Shown here: piece by piece, positions 55,823-62,660 of the stretch
How positions within the stretch are numbered: the first letter of the stretch is position 1
How the letters are laid out: each line of letters opens with the position of its first letter
Origin: Stappia sp. TSB10P1A
Lineage (GTDB): Bacteria > Pseudomonadota > Alphaproteobacteria > Rhizobiales > Stappiaceae
NCBI RefSeq assembly: GCF_900185725.1
Contig: NZ_FYAU01000026.1
Location: forward strand, 310,001-374,000
Length of the DNA: 64,000 nt
Reading direction: 5' to 3'
The notes under the pieces: model-generated
What the model was told of the DNA's origin: nothing
Database searches by the model: none
What the model saw: only the letters and a program-made list of their open reading frames with translations
Position numbers and translations under genes: made by a program

Positions 55823-56578
55823 ATGCTCAACATCAAAGCTGTTTTCCTTGCCGCCGGTCGCGGTGTGCGCATGGGCGAGCGTGGCCGCCTGACGCCCAAG
55901 GGCCTGATCTCGCTTGGAGAGCAGAGTTTCCTTGAAGACGCCGTCGACACATTGGCATTGCACGGGATTTCCGACGTGCGCGTGGTGACCGGCCATCTCG
56001 CCGACCACTACCGGACGCTGGCCGCCGAGCGCCGCCCGTCGCTCGACCTGCGCCACAACGACACCTTTTCCAGCAAGGGCTCGCTGCAGAGCCTGATGGT
56101 CGGCCTGGAGGGGCTGGACGGCCCCTGCCTGGTGCTGGAATCCGACCTGGTGTTCGAGCCGCGCGCCATTGAGGCCGCCATCGGCCGGCCGCAGACCTCC
56201 GCCCTGCTGGTGTCGGGAAAGACCGGCGCCGGCGACGAGGTGCATGTGTGGACCGACGAGCGGGACGGCCTGCGCTGCCTGCGCGACATGTCGAAGCTGA
56301 TCGACCGCTGGCACGATACCCCCTATGGCGAGTTGGTCGGCATCACCTACCTGACCGCCGACGCGGTCGGGGAATTGCGGGAGCTCGGCCCGCATCTGAT
56401 CGCCAGTGATCCGATGGCCGACTACGAGAGCGGCGTCGTCGCGCTGGCGCGGCGCCAGCAGGTCGCCGTTCCCAAGGTGGCGGACCTTGCCTGGGCCGAG
56501 GTCGACAACGAGGCGATGCTCGCCCGCGCCGCCGAACTGGTCTATCCCCGCATCGCGGCAGCCCGCCGGAGCGGCTGA
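55823..56578 (+). CDS. Nucleotidyltransferase, LicC/inositol-phosphate-cytidylyltransferase-like
   Basis: Cytosolic protein of 251 residues. N-terminal LAAGRGVRMGERGRLTPKGL is the NTP-binding loop and PKxL motif; then DVRVVTGHLADHY, an N-x5-KGSLQSLMVGL segment and LVLESDLVFEPRAIE with the metal-binding Asp. These match CTP-using enzymes that activate phosphocholine (LicC) or inositol-1-phosphate (IPCT of archaeal and bacterial di-inositol-phosphate pathways). With inositol-3-phosphate synthase and two CDP-alcohol transferases nearby, CTP:inositol-phosphate activity is an attractive guess; nucleotide and substrate remain unproven. Confidence 0.75.
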   Translation: MLNIKAVFLAAGRGVRMGERGRLTPKGLISLGEQSFLEDAVDTLALHGISDVRVVTGHLADHYRTLAAERRPSLDLRHNDTFSSKGSLQSLMVGLEGLDGPCLVLESDLVFEPRAIEAAIGRPQTSALLVSGKTGAGDEVHVWTDERDGLRCLRDMSKLIDRWHDTPYGELVGITYLTADAVGELRELGPHLIASDPMADYESGVVALARRQQVAVPKVADLAWAEVDNEAMLARAAELVYPRIAAARRSG

Positions 56579-56600
56579 TCCCCGCGAGAATTTTTGCGAC

Positions 56601-56645
56601 GAATTTTGCAAAATTCCGTCTCAAAATCGCGAAATTTTGAGACGG
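56601..56645. terminator. Bidirectional hairpin between convergent genes
   Basis: An AT-rich gap holds a perfect 16-base palindrome (56601-56616, GAATTTTGCAAAATTC), immediately followed by a 12-bp stem CCGTCTCAAAAT/ATTTTGAGACGG (56616-56627 and 56634-56645) with a 6-base loop. It lies between the stops of the nucleotidyltransferase and LptG-like genes and can serve both strands. Confidence 0.6.
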
Positions 56646-56660
56646 GGCGCGCAACCCCGC

Positions 56661-57884
56661 TCAATGCGGACGCGACAGCATCCGCTGCGCGACGACCACC
56701 CCGGCAAGCGCCAGGGCGATCGACAGCCAACTGCTGACAAAGCCCGAGAGCACGCCGATTTCCCCCATCGCCCAGGACACCTTGGTCGCGACCAGCGCGA
56801 GATATCCCGCAAGCGCCAGGATGAGGATGCGCAGCGGCGCGACGACCCGCCCGGCCCCGGCGATCGGGGCAAGGCTGGCGCCGAGCAGCGCATAGGCGCC
56901 GGGAAGGAAGAACGCCGCCCAGCGCCGCCACAGGGCGGCGTCGACATCCGGCCCCTTCAACGGATTGCCGTCGCGCGCCAGCACCTCGAGCGGGGCCTGC
57001 GGCAGGTAGAAGGCGGCGATGTCGTAATAGGTCAGCGCCTCGGGCACTATATCGAGCCGCAGCTCCAGGCTCGGATACTGGCTGATCAGATAGAGCGAGG
57101 TCTGGGCAAAGGCCGGCGGCGTGCCGTCGCTGCGCGGGACCTCCTCCGCCGGCAGCCGCGCCCACAGGTCGACATCGGTGAAGCGCCAGAAGCCCGGCCG
57201 CTCGCCCGGCTCGCCGTGGCGCGCGACGATCACGTCGCGCAGGTCGCCGGCGACCACGCCGCGATAGAGCTCGATATCGGCGAGCGCCGGCGTCGCGCTG
57301 CGGATCACCCGGGCCTTCAGCGCCGCGCCGTTGACGACGAACCAGCTCGGCTCGCCAAGCTCGCCATCGGCGAAGCGCCGGCCGTAGCCGCCGAGCTGCA
57401 GCCCGGCCTGGGCGAAGACCGCCTCCGGCCGCCACCAGCGCTCCAGCGAGACTTGCAGCGCGCCGGTCAGAGCCGCGAACAGGCAGACCACCACCAGCGT
57501 CTGGCGCGGCGACCAGCCGGCCGCGGCGATCACCGTGGTCTCGCGGTTGAACAGGCGCATCAGCTCGGCCGCGAAGACGCCGATGAAGCAGGCGACGGGA
57601 AAGAGGCGCGTGGCGATGTCGACCGCGCGGAAGCCGAGATAGGTCGCGACCAGCACCGCGCGCGAGCGCCCGAGCTCATCGGCCCGCGCCAGCACGCCGT
57701 CGAGCGTCTGCGCCAGGTCGATGGCGAAGGCGACGATCAGGAACATCGTCATCACCAGCGCCGCCGCCTTCAGATGGGTGAAGAGGATGCGCCGGCCGAT
57801 CAGGCCGAGCACCGGCGTGCGCCGCCGCGGCACGCGCGGGCCACCGGCAAGGAACGCAAGAGCGGTTCCGGGCGCGCGCATCAT
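56661..57884 (-). CDS. LptF/LptG-family permease (second of pair)
   Basis: YjgP/YjgQ-type permease of 407 residues. N-terminal helix VMTMFLIVAFAIDLAQTLD, then LFPVACFIGVFAAELMRLFNRETTVIAAAG, a family hallmark, a beta-rich periplasmic domain (about 150-310), and three C-terminal helices. LptF and LptG move lipopolysaccharide from the inner membrane to the periplasmic LptC/A bridge. The gene is 3 bases after the partner gene. It is not near lptD or pepA as usual, but inside a lipid-synthesis island, so a dedicated exporter of another lipid is likely. Confidence 0.8.
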   Translation of the reverse strand: MMRAPGTALAFLAGGPRVPRRRTPVLGLIGRRILFTHLKAAALVMTMFLIVAFAIDLAQTLDGVLARADELGRSRAVLVATYLGFRAVDIATRLFPVACFIGVFAAELMRLFNRETTVIAAAGWSPRQTLVVVCLFAALTGALQVSLERWWRPEAVFAQAGLQLGGYGRRFADGELGEPSWFVVNGAALKARVIRSATPALADIELYRGVVAGDLRDVIVARHGEPGERPGFWRFTDVDLWARLPAEEVPRSDGTPPAFAQTSLYLISQYPSLELRLDIVPEALTYYDIAAFYLPQAPLEVLARDGNPLKGPDVDAALWRRWAAFFLPGAYALLGASLAPIAGAGRVVAPLRILILALAGYLALVATKVSWAMGEIGVLSGFVSSWLSIALALAGVVVAQRMLSRPH

Positions 57885-57887
57885 CGC

Positions 57888-59135
57888 TCAGGCCCGCGAG
57901 CTGACGGGGCGCAGCAGCGCCGCCGCGCGGGTGCGGATGCCGGCGAGCGCCAGCAGCAGCACCGCCGCCGCCGCAAGGGCGCCGACCGAGGCGAGCGCCA
58001 GCGGCGCCTCCGCCGCCAGCCGGCCGAGCACGCCGCGCAGGACGATGTCGAAGGCGAGCAGCGCGCCGCAGGCCAGCGGCAGCGACAGATAGCCGAAGAC
58101 GCCGCGCCCGGCGAAGACGCAGGCGAGCAGCGCCAGCAGCGGCGCGACGAAGACGGCGATGGCGCGCGACAGCCGTTCGCCGGCGATCTTCAGCGCCTCA
58201 CGCCCGGTCTCGCCCATGGCGCGGCCGGCCTGCAGCGCCTCGAACACCGTCCATTCGCCCGCCACGTCGCCGCGCAGGGCGTGGTTGAGGATGTTGTCGA
58301 GACGGACCGGCAGCGACACGTTCTCGACCTTGACCTGCGGCAGCGCCGGGATGTTGGCGACGTCCGGCCGGCCGACGGCAAAAAGGTTCGGCCCGCGCCC
58401 CTGGCGCAGCATGCCGGCCCCCTCGCGCGCTTCCACCCGCACGAAGTCATAGGCGATCACCCGGCCGAGCCCGAGACTGTAATTTCCCTCAGCGTCCGGC
58501 CCGTCGAGGTTCCAGTCGGCCGCCTGGGTCACCCGCCAGCGCCCCTCCTCGCCCGGCTGATGCACGAAGAGGCTCTCATGCGGCGGGCTGACCGAGCTGT
58601 CGGAGAGGGCGGCGAAGGTCTTGCCGCGGATGGTCTCGATCAAGGTGCCCTCGCTCGGCCCGGTGATGCGGGCGAACAGCAGATCGCTCTTGAGATGAAA
58701 GATCACCGTGCGGGTGGCATGGCGGGCCAGCGGATCGATGACGCCGGAGACGACAAGGCTCGCCGCGAAGGCCAGCGCGCCCAAGGCGAGCGCGACGCGC
58801 ACCGGCAGGACCCAGGAGACGCCGGCCGCCGACAGGGCGACCAGCTCGCGCTCCTCGCGCGCCGCGACGAAGGCGAAATAGCCGCCGATGACGCAGGCCA
58901 GCGCCAGCGCGAAGTCGAAGATCTCCGGCGCGGTCAGGATGAGGACGGCGAGCGCGGAGAGCAGGTCGCCGCCATTGCCGAGCACCTCTTCCAGGATGCC
59001 GGTCAGCTTCTCGGCGAGGAACACCACCTCGATGATGGCGACGACGAGCAGCACCCGGCCGAGCACGCGCAGGAACAGCGACCGCGCGGCAATGGAGGCA
59101 AGCGGTCTCACCTTGACCCGCACCCCGTCCGGCAT
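57888..59135 (-). CDS. LptF/LptG-family permease (first of pair)
   Basis: Permease of about 415 residues of the same family: N-terminal helix RVLGRVLLVVAIIEVVFLAEKLTGIL, LILTAPEIFDFALALACVIG, AAREERELVALSAAGVSWVLP (the conserved loop after helix 3), a periplasmic beta-jellyroll-type region (about 130-290), and three C-terminal helices. ATG at 59135 was preferred to a GTG at 59150. Together with the next gene it would form an LptFG-like dimer; an LptB-like ATPase is not encoded in the window and would have to be shared. Confidence 0.8.
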   Translation of the reverse strand: MPDGVRVKVRPLASIAARSLFLRVLGRVLLVVAIIEVVFLAEKLTGILEEVLGNGGDLLSALAVLILTAPEIFDFALALACVIGGYFAFVAAREERELVALSAAGVSWVLPVRVALALGALAFAASLVVSGVIDPLARHATRTVIFHLKSDLLFARITGPSEGTLIETIRGKTFAALSDSSVSPPHESLFVHQPGEEGRWRVTQAADWNLDGPDAEGNYSLGLGRVIAYDFVRVEAREGAGMLRQGRGPNLFAVGRPDVANIPALPQVKVENVSLPVRLDNILNHALRGDVAGEWTVFEALQAGRAMGETGREALKIAGERLSRAIAVFVAPLLALLACVFAGRGVFGYLSLPLACGALLAFDIVLRGVLGRLAAEAPLALASVGALAAAAVLLLALAGIRTRAAALLRPVSSRA

Positions 59136-59185
59136 GTCGCCCCGTTCCACATGTCGCCCTGCATCGCTCTCCGTCGTGTTTCATG

Positions 59186-59261
59186 CTAGTCACCCGAATC
59201 TGAAGTTCGTCACATTTGGCAGCAAGCTCTGTACGAACTTCAGATTCAAAAGGGTGACTAG
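59186..59261. repeat. Long interrupted hairpin element 1
   Basis: Outer arms CTAGTCACCC (59186-59195) and GGGTGACTAG (59252-59261) enclose inner arms GAATCTGAAGTTCGT (59196-59210) and ACGAACTTCAGATTC (59233-59247), all perfect inverted copies, with an AAAA bulge on the 3' side and a 22-base loop containing TTTGGCAGCAA. The spacer is far more AT-rich than the window. It lies between the LptF-like start and the pgpA start. Confidence 0.9.
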
Positions 59262-59275
59262 TAAGTTTATGTTTC

Positions 59276-59350
59276 TAGTGTGGTTTTCGAATTTGAAATA
59301 CGCTCCGACGGTTGCCGCAAAACGAGGCGTATTTCAAATTCACCACACTA
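59276..59350. repeat. Long interrupted hairpin element 2, inverted relative of element 1
   Basis: Outer arms TAGTGTGG (59276-59283) and CCACACTA (59343-59350) enclose inner arms GAATTTGAAATACGC (59289-59303) and GCGTATTTCAAATTC (59327-59341), perfect inverted copies. The TTTTC bulge is on the 5' side, so on the opposite strand it matches element 1 in layout, and the loop reads TTTTGCGGCAA there. The inner stem differs from element 1 at several positions, each with a compensating change in the other arm. Confidence 0.9.
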
Positions 59351-59419
59351 TAGCCCGGCCTGCCGCGCGGCATCCCGCCCGGTGGTTCCGATTCCGATCC
59401 TCATCATAGGCCGGCCGCA

Positions 59420-59899
59420 ATGTCCCGTCTTGTCCATAAGCCGAGCCAGCGGCTCGGTTATGTCCTGGCCCTGTCCTTCGGCGCCGGCCTGTCGCCGGTC
59501 TGGCCGGGCACGGTGGGCGCCGCCGTCGGTCTCGTCCTGGCCGCCGGCCTTGCGGTCCTCTCCGTGCCGCTGCAGCTTGCCGGCCTTGCCCTGCTGCTCG
59601 TTGTCGGCATCTGGGCCTCGGGCGTCGTCGCCGAAGCGACCGGCACCGACGATCCGCAGATCGTGGTGATCGACGAGAGCTTCGGCGCCGCCGCCGTGGT
59701 GCTGGCGCTGCCGGCCGAGCCGCTGTGGTGGATCGCCGGCTTCATCGCCTTCCGCGCCTTCGACATTCTCAAGCCTTTCCCGGTCAACTGGGTCCAGGAC
59801 CATGTCAAGGGCGGCGCCGGGATCATGCTCGACGATGCCGCCGCCGCGCTCTACGCGATCCTCGTCCTTGCGCCCATCGCCTGGGTCCTCGCCGGCTGA
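59420..59899 (+). CDS. pgpA: Phosphatidylglycerophosphatase A-like lipid phosphatase
   Basis: Membrane protein of 159 residues with all PgpA hallmarks: GLSPVWPGTVGAAVGL at the N terminus, DDPQIVVIDESFG, FRAFDILKPFPVNWVQ and KGGAGIMLDDAAAALYA. PgpA is a metal-dependent phosphatase that removes the phosphate from phosphatidylglycerophosphate. In a locus with inositol-phosphate synthase and a PIP-synthase-like enzyme it may instead dephosphorylate phosphatidylinositol-phosphate or the sphingolipid counterpart, as in Bacteroidetes inositol-lipid clusters. It converges on the CdsA-like gene (7 bases between stops). Confidence 0.9.
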   Translation: MSRLVHKPSQRLGYVLALSFGAGLSPVWPGTVGAAVGLVLAAGLAVLSVPLQLAGLALLLVVGIWASGVVAEATGTDDPQIVVIDESFGAAAVVLALPAEPLWWIAGFIAFRAFDILKPFPVNWVQDHVKGGAGIMLDDAAAALYAILVLAPIAWVLAG

Positions 59900-59906
59900 A
59901 GCCGCG

Positions 59907-60695
59907 TTACGGCGCAAGCCGCAGCAGCAGAACCAGCGCGGGACCGGCGATCAGCCAGGCATCGACGATGTCGAGCAGCCCGCCCTGGCGCGGCAGCACC
60001 TGCGGATAGTCCTTGACGCCCGAAGCGCGCTTCAGCCGCGAGCCGGCAAGATCGCCGACCACCGCCGCAACCGCGATGACGGCGGCCGCCGCCAGCGACA
60101 GGGCAAGCGACCAGCCGAGCAGCAAGGGCCCGGCGAGCGCCGCCGTCAGCGCCAGCATCGCCGCGCCGACGGCAAGCCCCTCCACCGTCTTGCGCGGGCT
60201 GAGCCGCGGGAAGGCCGGGCGGCGGCCGAACAGCTTGCCGCCGAACAGGGCGTAGCTGTCATAGGTCTCGACCAGCAGGAAGGCGAGCACCAGCACGCCG
60301 GCATTGGCCGGCTCGACGCCGACGGCAACGAACAGCGCCAGCGGCAGGCCGGGAAACAGCAGAACCTCGGCGGCAAGGCGCAGCGAACCGGCATCGCCGC
60401 CGGCGCGAAGATGCCGCCGCCAGGCAACGCTCACCGCCTCATAGGCAACGCGCGTCGCCAGCGCGGCCAGCGCCAGGGAGAGAACGAGGCCGCCGGCGAC
60501 GAAGGGGCCGAGCCCGCCGCCGACGATCACCAGCTCCGTGCCATAGACCGGCCAGAGCGGGCGCGCCTGCGGTGCCGTCGCCGGTACCAGGCTGCCGAGC
60601 GCGAGCAGCACGCCGCCGACCGCAAGGCAGGCGAGAACGGCGAGCGCGGCAATGTCGAGCGGAACGAGGGCCGGCATCATGGACGAGGGCATCAT
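59907..60695 (-). CDS. CDP-lipid synthase (CdsA family) with altered signature
   Basis: Membrane protein of 262 residues with about seven helices. The C-terminal signature SRLKRASGVKDYPQVLPRQG follows the CdsA pattern (S-x-L-K-R-x4-K-D), but GGL is preceded by Gln instead of His and the last part is LLDIVD instead of DR-x-D. CdsA makes CDP-diacylglycerol from phosphatidate and CTP. The changes suggest a paralog with a different lipid or ligand mode, perhaps a ceramide phosphate. The ATG at 60695 starts 10 bases after the reductase gene; downstream ATGs at 60692 and 60680 are possible. Canonical cdsA is expected elsewhere. Confidence 0.8.
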   Translation of the reverse strand: MMPSSMMPALVPLDIAALAVLACLAVGGVLLALGSLVPATAPQARPLWPVYGTELVIVGGGLGPFVAGGLVLSLALAALATRVAYEAVSVAWRRHLRAGGDAGSLRLAAEVLLFPGLPLALFVAVGVEPANAGVLVLAFLLVETYDSYALFGGKLFGRRPAFPRLSPRKTVEGLAVGAAMLALTAALAGPLLLGWSLALSLAAAAVIAVAAVVGDLAGSRLKRASGVKDYPQVLPRQGGLLDIVDAWLIAGPALVLLLRLAP

Positions 60696-60705
60696 CGCGC
60701 CGCGC

Positions 60706-61545
60706 TCAGTCCCGGTGCGAGCGGGCAAGGCGCGCCTGCCAGAGCCGCAAGGCCGGCGACAGCAGGCTGTGGCCATGGGCGAGAAGGCGCATCTGCAAGC
60801 CCGGGGCGACGGTGAAACGGCCCTTCTCGGCGGCGAGGATGATCTTTTCCGCCACCCGCTCGGCCGGCCAGAGGCCGCCGCCAGCGGTGATCGCCCGAGT
60901 CGCCGCCGGCTTGGTCTCGTTCTCCATGGCTAACTGCGGCGTGTCGGTGTCGGGCGGATAGGCGAGCGTTACCGAAATACCGTCGCCGGCGAGTTCCACC
61001 CGCAGCACCTCGGCAAGGCCGCGCATGGCGAATTTCGACGGCGCATAGGCACCATAGCCGTAGATGCCGAAGAAGGCGGCTCCGGAAGAGACGAAGACCA
61101 TGCGCCCGCCGCCGGCATCGGCCATGGCCGGCGCAAGCGCATGGGCGACATGCAGCGCGCCGAGATAGTTGGTGCGCATCTGCATCAGGTGGTCGTCGAG
61201 CGGCTGCTGCAGGAAACGGCCGGGCCGGGCGACGCCGGCATTCATCACCGCCCAGCGCGGCACGCCGAGTTCGGCAGTGATGCCGGCAATGGCCTCGCGC
61301 GCCTGATCGGCCTCGCCGACATCCGCAGCGCGCAGGGCGATGCGCGCCCGCGGCACCGCGGCGGCAATCTCCTGGCGCACGGCCTCCAGCCGCTCGGCCC
61401 CGCGCGAGACCAGGCCGAGATCGAAGCCCTTGCGCGCCAGCGACAGGGCCATGGCGCGGCCGATGCCGCTGCTGCCGCCGGTGATCAGGGCGACGGGACG
61501 CCCGGCGGCGCCGAGCAGCCCTGCGCCCGTCGCCGCGCCGGTCAT
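60706..61545 (-). CDS. SDR, 3-ketodihydrosphingosine reductase-like
   Basis: Short-chain dehydrogenase of 279 residues. Cofactor loop GGSSGIGRAMALSLARKG, catalytic Ser in FVSSGAAFFG and Tyr/Lys in YAPSKFAMRG. The segment AYPPDTDTPQLAMENETKP is the hallmark of eukaryotic KDSR/Tsc10 enzymes that reduce 3-ketosphinganine to sphinganine with NADPH. A C-terminal hydrophobic stretch (LLAHGHSLLSPALRLW) could tether it to the membrane. It follows ino1 by 2 bases. An oxoamine synthase, which would make the substrate, is encoded 2 kb upstream on the same strand. Confidence 0.8.
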   Translation of the reverse strand: MTGAATGAGLLGAAGRPVALITGGSSGIGRAMALSLARKGFDLGLVSRGAERLEAVRQEIAAAVPRARIALRAADVGEADQAREAIAGITAELGVPRWAVMNAGVARPGRFLQQPLDDHLMQMRTNYLGALHVAHALAPAMADAGGGRMVFVSSGAAFFGIYGYGAYAPSKFAMRGLAEVLRVELAGDGISVTLAYPPDTDTPQLAMENETKPAATRAITAGGGLWPAERVAEKIILAAEKGRFTVAPGLQMRLLAHGHSLLSPALRLWQARLARSHRD

Positions 61546-61547
61546 GG

Positions 61548-62660
61548 TCAGGCCGCCTCGCCGTTGGCGAAGGCGAGCAGACGGTCGTAGCCTTCCGCGT
61601 CCTCGATCTGCAGCGGCGGATGCTTGAACAGGAAGGCGCTCGCCTCCTCGATCGGGCCGGCAAGGCCGCGGTCGCGGGCGATCCTGGCGCAGCGGATGGC
61701 GATCAGCGCCATCGCCGCGGCATTGGGGGAATCCTCCACCTCCAGCCGCATCTCGACATGGGTGCGCACGCCGCCGAACAGCCGGCCCTCGAGCCGCACA
61801 TAGGCGACCTTGCGGTCGTTGAGCCAGGGCACATAGTCCGAGGGGCCGATGCGGATCTCGCTGTCGGAGAGCCGCGCGTTCATCGCCGTCTGCACCGCCT
61901 CGGTCTTGGACTCCCGCTTCATCGCCAGGCGGTCCATGTCCATCATGTTGAGGAAGTCGGTGTTGCCGCCGACATTGAGCTGATAGGTGCGGTCGACCTT
62001 GACGCCGCGCATGTCGGCGAGCCGCGCCAGCGCCCGGTGGGTGATCGTCGCGCCGAACTGCGCCTTGAAGTCGTCGCCGACGATCGGCACGCCGGCCTCG
62101 CGGAAGCGCGCCGCCCAGACCGGGTCGGAGGCGATGAAGACCGGGATGCCGTTGACGAAGGCGCAGCCGGCTTCCAGCGCGCATTCGGCATAGAACTGCG
62201 TCGCCTCGATCGAGCCGACGGGCAGGAAGTTGATGATCACCTCGGCCTTCGCCTCGCGCAGGGCCGCGACGATGCCGGCCTTGTCGAGCGCCGGCGCGCT
62301 GGAGACGACGAAGCTGCGGTCGGGCGCCTGGTTGCGCATGAAGGCGGAGACGCCGTCGAGATCCGGGCCGCGCAGCACCGGCGCGGTCATGCCGTCAAGG
62401 TCCTTGTGGAAGATCTCGGTGCAGTTCGGCAGGGCAACGGCCGCCTCACCGACGGTGCGCCCGACCTTGCGGGCGTCGACCTCGAAGGCGAGGACGATCT
62501 CGACATCCTCCGGCCGGTAGCCGCCGAGCACGGGGAAGGCGACGCCCACGGCCTCCTCGCCGAGCGCCCGGCAATAGGCCACGCCCTGGATCAGCGAGCT
62601 TGCGCAATTGCCGGCACCGACAATGGCGGTGCGAATCGATCTGGCGGAAGAAGCGCTCAT
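61548..62660 (-). CDS. ino1: Inositol-3-phosphate synthase (Ino1)
   Basis: Protein of 370 residues, the size of actinobacterial and archaeal Ino1. NAD-binding motif AIVGAGNCASSLIQGVAYC near residue 11, then EVIINFLPVGSIEATQFYAE, VGDDFKAQFGATITHRAL and LNVGGNTDFLNMMDMDRL with SKTEAV, containing the lysines and Asp of the active site. It converts glucose-6-phosphate to inositol-3-phosphate (inositol-1-L-phosphate). This is uncommon in alphaproteobacteria, which usually import inositol. Its place beside lipid genes indicates that its product feeds inositol-lipid synthesis. Confidence 0.9.
   Translation of the reverse strand: MSASSARSIRTAIVGAGNCASSLIQGVAYCRALGEEAVGVAFPVLGGYRPEDVEIVLAFEVDARKVGRTVGEAAVALPNCTEIFHKDLDGMTAPVLRGPDLDGVSAFMRNQAPDRSFVVSSAPALDKAGIVAALREAKAEVIINFLPVGSIEATQFYAECALEAGCAFVNGIPVFIASDPVWAARFREAGVPIVGDDFKAQFGATITHRALARLADMRGVKVDRTYQLNVGGNTDFLNMMDMDRLAMKRESKTEAVQTAMNARLSDSEIRIGPSDYVPWLNDRKVAYVRLEGRLFGGVRTHVEMRLEVEDSPNAAAMALIAIRCARIARDRGLAGPIEEASAFLFKHPPLQIEDAEGYDRLLAFANGEAA

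Follow-up and report, generated by a model that had tools for sequence, protein, structure and literature searches.

A double-hairpin, MITE-like element with IS870-like ends in the lptF–pgpA gap of Stappia sp. TSB10P1A

In Stappia sp. TSB10P1A, the window (the whole 64-kb stretch of DNA analysed here) contains a divergent gap between the genes for an LptF/LptG-family permease and a PgpA-family phosphatase (Table 1). These genes lie in a cluster (55823–62660) encoding an NTP transferase, two LptF/G-family permeases, PgpA, a CTP transferase, a short-chain dehydrogenase and a myo-inositol-1-phosphate synthase, which looks like an inositol-lipid pathway. A sequence-only reading of the gap had described two long hairpins in opposite orientation, and the layout and coordinates it gave for both are borne out. 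One of its proposals was a palindromic mobile element inserted twice, of which the mobile, MITE-like character stands and the double insertion does not, the two hairpins being halves of a single bipartite unit.

This unit spans 166 bp: hairpin 1 comes first, then 13 nt of linker bounded by a CTAG at either side, then hairpin 2 in inverted orientation. It matches a covariance model over its full length at 159.1 bits, the alignment behind this match including another copy from the same genome and not the window copy. Hairpin 1 has outer arms of 10 bp, a perfect inner stem of 15 bp, an AAAA bulge in its 3′ arm and a loop of 22 nt, while hairpin 2 runs in the opposite orientation with a perfect 15-bp inner stem, a TTTC bulge in its 5′ arm and a 23-nt loop. 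The bulges recur throughout 34 diverged dimers (i.e. complete double-hairpin copies): that of hairpin 1 measures 2–5 nt in all 34 (4 nt in 29) and that of hairpin 2 measures 3–5 nt in all 34 (4 nt in 28). GANTC sites occur in both arms of hairpin 1 in 24 of the 34 dimers and at the equivalent place in hairpin 2 in one. Over 21 positions inside CTAG, the two hairpins' outer arms share a mean identity of 66% in these dimers, forming imperfect terminal inverted repeats. Between the TAs, 102 copies measure 158–165 bp, which is too short to accommodate a transposase.

Table 1. Positions of the element, its parts and the neighbouring genes in the window.
Feature	Position	Strand	Remarks
LptF/LptG-family permease, neighbour	57888..59150	-	PF03739, E 3.2e-16
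Whole double-hairpin element	59186..59351	+	filled site CTA ... CTAT
Element proper	59189-59348		bounded by the two TAs
Left TA of target-site duplication	59187..59188	.	empty sites CTAT; TA on both sides in 92/102 copies
Hairpin 1	59186..59261	+	inner stem 59196-59210/59233-59247; loop 59211-59232
Left outer arm (hairpin 1), transposon-end-like	59189..59212	+	resembles IS630/IS870-group ends
GAATC (GANTC site)	59196..59200	+	mirror GATTC at 59243-59247
A-rich bulge, inner arm of hairpin 1	59248..59251	+	
13-nt linker TAAGTTTATGTTT	59262..59274	+	between CTAG sites 59258-59261 and 59275-59278
Hairpin 2, inverted	59275..59351	-	CTAG from 59275; terminal CTAT at 59348-59351; inner stem 59289-59303/59327-59341; loop 59304-59326
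TTTC bulge, inner arm of hairpin 2	59285..59288	+	
Right outer arm (hairpin 2), transposon-end-like	59325..59348	-	imperfect inverted repeat of left outer arm
Right TA of target-site duplication	59349..59350	.	empty sites CTAT; TA on both sides in 92/102 copies
PgpA-family phosphatase, neighbour	59420..59899	+	PF04608, E 1.8e-37

The element is not confined to this locus. Within its own genome, 51 matches resolve into 19 sites, of which 16 hold a roughly full-length copy; of the other three copies, one is partial, one is decayed and one is interrupted by a different element. The genes beside these copies are unrelated, and their arrangement around the gap may be divergent, tandem or convergent; with a crude ORF caller, 13 of 18 copies are intergenic and five overlap a called ORF. 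Among 41 genomes of relatives, the own genome included, ten carry the element: seven of 14 in the genus, three of 11 in the rest of the family and none of 16 from the order's remaining families. A covariance model of the 34 dimers finds it in at least 15 of 289 alphaproteobacterial genomes (own included) from ten families, a lower bound because nine candidates were scored per genome. Scanning named genomes with the linker pattern gave 96 stretches, nearly all alphaproteobacterial by title, in genera including Phenylobacterium, Caulobacter, Brucella/Ochrobactrum, Martelella, Devosia, Mesorhizobium and Phyllobacterium, and one titled as a Chloroflexi MAG. Thirteen plasmid records also contain the element (Roseibium, Labrenzia, Sphingopyxis, Sphingobium and Aminobacter). 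The sequence-only reading had suggested such a search of the genome and its relatives with a covariance model, with many dispersed copies pointing to a mobile element, and many dispersed copies were found. A viral contig of 4475 bp (L162) has two copies flanking phage-like genes; no transposase was recognised on it by eye, and it had no match in the phage collection. Two genomes (G103 and G321; L253, L254 and L262) contain shorter dimers of 121–133 bp, with the same build and very small loops.

Comparison of the window locus with its relatives shows both filled and empty sites. A sister species (G002) has the element at the identical place, whereas four congeners (G003, G005, G008 and G012) read CTAT where the filled site reads CTA-element-CTAT; their empty site is TTCATGCTAT and the filled site is TTCATGCTA-element-CTATAG. 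This comparison covers the congeners with an alignable gap, as the gap of seven others was too diverged. The element probably entered the lptF–pgpA gap in a common ancestor of this genome and the sister species. The flanks of 102 full copies, which have distinct flanks and were drawn from 110 linker matches, show the same pattern: 92 are flanked by TA at both ends and 83 read CTA...TAG, and the base outside the TA is mostly C/G, also T, A or C. The other ten lack this two-sided TA, and in eight of the 102 TA is missing, in a further way, from one side or both. The terminal G...C is present in 100 and 102 of the 102 copies, respectively, which is partly imposed by how copies were delimited. Copies up to 99–100% identical have unrelated flanks, and in two cases (L079 and L082) a whole dimer is inserted inside another dimer, at the CTAG adjoining the linker. 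Dispersal, empty sites, nesting and near-identical copies in unrelated surroundings all uphold the mobile option of the sequence-only reading.

Some copies meet coding sequences. Four of 18 own-genome copies (L002, L003, L005 and L007) meet a called gene at its stop codon, either abutting the codon or overlapping it. As the element begins with G after the TA, its sequence implies that insertion into a stop codon restores a TAG. At L003, relatives have TAA where the own genome has the element-made TAG, and the seven usable loci of 11, plus L276, show the TAA stop at the site. This second locus is weaker evidence for TA insertion, because its gene has paralogues.

Taken as sequence evidence, these comparisons make it well supported that the element is a TA-duplicating transposable element rather than a conserved leader RNA. 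The features found are those of a MITE: dispersed short copies without a transposase, a target-site duplication with empty sites, and terminal inverted repeats. We therefore think it very probable that the window holds a MITE copy of ~160–166 bp with terminal inverted repeats doubled into hairpins, which would be mobilised in trans by an IS870-group transposase. Doubling of each terminal inverted repeat would have given a long hairpin with a bulge, the short linker joining the two hairpins. An autonomous element elsewhere would supply a transposase of the IS870 group (IS630 family), which would recognise the outer arms (~22–25 bp), excise the unit, and insert it at TA, mostly within CTAG, thereby duplicating the TA. 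We infer that the moving unit is the dimer and not one hairpin, and the A-rich bulge may label the inner arms and so keep them from serving as ends. The window copy itself would be a passenger of mobile DNA, with no apparent locus-specific function.

Both hairpins fold far more stably than expected, with z-scores of −10.4, −8.3, −6.7 and −7.7 when each hairpin is folded on each strand. In each of these four cases, none of 200 shuffles folds as well, which places the folds far beyond chance, as the sequence-only reading had held. They are the only 100%-complementary pairs among the 25 listed of the 31 inverted repeats in the window. The covariation that had been deduced from two copies holds on the 34 diverged dimers, members of which have less than 93% similarity with related sequences still among them: 97.2% of 1689 cells are paired (shuffled 83.0%), 32 of 50 pairs have changed on both sides (shuffled 22.2), and double-change cells number 236 versus a shuffled mean of 66.9. 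Slid structures, used as a control, are 26.6–40.0% paired. Of the unpaired cells, 16 fall in a single pair adjoining the bulge. Were RNA structure selected on one strand, G-U should outnumber A-C, but the 1689 cells contain 23 G-T and 33 A-C, so the pairing is Watson–Crick in type and its constraint acts on DNA. Strong covariation in an alphaproteobacterial intergenic hairpin can thus mark mobile DNA rather than regulatory RNA.

What maintains this pairing is a separate question. Correction of palindromes by DNA template switching also yields paired changes, so covariation alone does not imply that the pairing is selected, as had been claimed. The arms might be paired solely because the polymerase corrects imperfect palindromes by switching templates, leaving the hairpin without a role; we regard this as a real possibility, albeit one we lean slightly against. 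The two arms within a hairpin are 94% (hairpin 1) and 97% (hairpin 2) identical, compared with 66% for the outer ends of the two hairpins, even though a transposase should need precisely those outer ends to be alike, and the Watson–Crick pairing also fits such correction. However, the asymmetric 4-nt bulge, which correction is expected to erase, is retained in both hairpins of all 34 dimers. The excess of arm identity within hairpins suggests correction or selection inside each of them, and template switching concerns the cause of the covariation, making it compatible with the MITE reading. Alternatively, the bulged hairpins may be needed as folded DNA, in which the ends of an IS630/Tc1-mariner-type element are recognised or protected and the bulge tells the outer from the inner arm. 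Taken jointly with a dimer superfamily, we rate this as unlikely. If true, the 165-bp dimers, the 120–133-bp dimers of G103 and G321, and the CIR/RIME-like elements would form one dimer-transposon superfamily, with TATTGAAT/ATTCAATA as its common linker motif.

The candidate mobiliser of the MITE emerges from its outer arms. Single 30-nt outer-arm queries against plasmids matched 31 records; in six of them the matched stretch is annotated as IS630-family (Roseomonas, Komagataeibacter, B. elkanii and three Agrobacterium records of IS870). The transposase ORF ends exactly at the matched CTAG in three of four elements, and 17 bp inside in B. elkanii. The IS870 reading frame depends on CTAG for its stop codon, with which the ORF ends at CTAG agree. 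A preference for CTAG was reportedly described by Tenzen and Ohtsubo in 1991, going by the title. TA is the insertion target of IS630-family elements and becomes duplicated, according to the available part of one source (PMC2170065). The MITE has the TA/CTAG site in common with the IS870 group and the IS630 family and resembles them in end sequence over ~22–25 bp; the IS870-group elements differ in measuring 1152–1160 bp (in the three with a second end found) and encoding proteins with an HTH plus a DDE_3 transposase, whereas the MITE codes for none and has its ends doubled into hairpins. For the Roseomonas element, the second (distal) end was searched for and not found.

As the ends in the plasmid matches were selected by similarity, the independent test lies in ends reached via the IS870 protein. 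Compared with the best MITE arm, these agree at 20/22 (G014) and 17/22 (G114) positions, where shuffled sequences, the sole control, give a best mean of ~9 and a maximum of 15; a recognisable matching end was present at only two of the five loci from this protein search. The second ends of the B. elkanii and Komagataeibacter elements agree at 16/22 and 15/22, the latter equalling the shuffled maximum of 15, and the distal end of IS870 at 13/22 is within the shuffled range (max 14). The IS870 protein was found in four of 31 element-positive and none of 15 element-negative genomes, too few for a significant association with the element. The own genome had no IS870-protein match, and its copies are therefore probably orphans. 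No genome searched contained an autonomous partner with both ends identical or nearly identical to those of the MITE, and the PF13358 (DDE_3) profile matched four of 11 genomes, with none in G000 (own), G002, G005 or G024. Judged by their sequence, the outer arms resemble ends of the IS870 group of the IS630 family, and an IS870-group transposase is the putative mobiliser, an assignment that is well though not finally supported. Solitary outer arms (in G005, G008, G010, G024 and others) were considered as termini of an autonomous element and rejected, being remnants beside ordinary genes. The IS630 DDE_3 and DDE_Tnp_1 loci that were retrieved were also discarded as partners, since their TA-flanked ends are unlike the arms.

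That mismatch also bears on the possibility that the element is a TA-duplicating MITE of another transposase family (e.g. IS5/IS427-type), with a convergent likeness to IS870. IS5-type elements can use YTAR sites too, as the available text on IS711 indicates (PMC3163539), and the PF01609 (DDE_Tnp_1) profile matched 11 of 12 genomes searched; the own genome is the one without a match, however, and it is IS870-group ends that resemble the arms, leaving this an improbable account. More doubtful still is an element of REP/REPIN type, on whose hairpins a RAYT (Y1 tyrosine) transposase would act in single-stranded form. In outline the element resembles REPINs, in which bulged hairpins are paired in inverted orientation and a tetranucleotide is fixed, but PF01797 was found in none of 16 same-family genomes (own included), the units are ~75 nt per hairpin, and TA is duplicated here, which to our knowledge single-strand Y1 insertion does not do. 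Least credible, despite the strong folds, the covariation and the divergent gap, is that the lptF-like and pgpA genes have a conserved structured RNA, be it a leader, an attenuator or an sRNA, whose two stem-loops act in transcripts: the leader-RNA option of the sequence-only reading is rejected because the element is missing in the four congeners although the ends of both genes align, 18 further own-genome sites adjoin other genes, and wobble pairs are not preferred; moreover, Rfam gave no gathering-score match in the element, where only sub-threshold microRNA matches occur, and a single tRNA in the whole window.

Among published repeats, the closest kind, as far as the accessible descriptions go, is that of the CIR, RIME and Bru-RS repeats. 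CIR were reportedly first described by Chen and Shapiro in 2003, RIME1 by Osteras in 1995 and Bru-RS1/2 by Halling and Bricker in 1994; RIME1 measures 108 bp. CIR (CcrM-associated intergenic repeats) are ~110-bp units with GANTC at the terminal loop, in the parts of two papers available to us (PMC2229807, PMC10969869). By these descriptions, rather than by the CIR1–CIR4 sequences, CIR and the MITE are both alphaproteobacterial, intergenic and multi-copy, with two long inverted repeats plus a linker, terminal TA and GANTC; the MITE differs in its length of ~165 bp and in having GANTC in the stem of hairpin 1. In the available text of a 2007 review, the target duplication of CIR is given as unknown and how they move is left open (PMC2229807). 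With TA duplication, empty sites and a named candidate mobiliser for a longer element of CIR-type build, mobility becomes a question for the bench. RIME1 and Bru-RS1/2 are likewise palindromic intergenic repeats of alphaproteobacteria and, again by partial descriptions rather than sequence, shorter than the ~165-bp element; the available passages give Bru-RS a size of 103–106 bp (PMC10800456) and describe them as TA-rich insertion targets of IS711 (PMC3163539). RUP, Correia/NEMIS and ERIC are also short, TA-flanked, non-autonomous elements, RUP being linked to IS630-Spn1, but in the review text at hand (PMC2229807) they differ in host bacteria, in sequence and in forming a single fold-back instead of two linked hairpins. 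The literature searched, a coverage outside which the original CIR paper falls, contained no account of this element family or of a link to IS870.

Other elements are found at the CTAG sites of the MITE. In the own genome (L062 in G000:C30, ~1060–1175), one copy of the main element contains, at its CTAG, a second double-hairpin element of ~110 bp, here called element B, which carries GACTC in one of its loops and ATTCAATA in its linker. It resembles CIR/RIME-type repeats and looks closer to RIME1/Bru-RS than the main element does. Against plasmids, element B matched Methylocella at 78–79% and had no Sinorhizobium match, so we do not equate it with RIME1. By eye, linkers of distant genomes (e.g. 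CAACCTATTGAAT) have TATTGAAT in common with element B. At L079, L082, L096, L114, L139 and L144, three to four different hairpins form an array in which they meet at CTAG, with linkers of 13–15 nt; some arrays are explained by insertion of a dimer in a dimer and others by later deletion. At L063 (G019:C13), a ~260-bp element with GGTCTGGACC inverted ends lies between the two hairpins of a copy, with CTAG on both sides. Finally, G002 has five identical DDE_Tnp_1 insertion sequences, and one of them (L240, 946–1931) directly borders a copy at the TA of its end, indicating that other elements target these CTAG sites.
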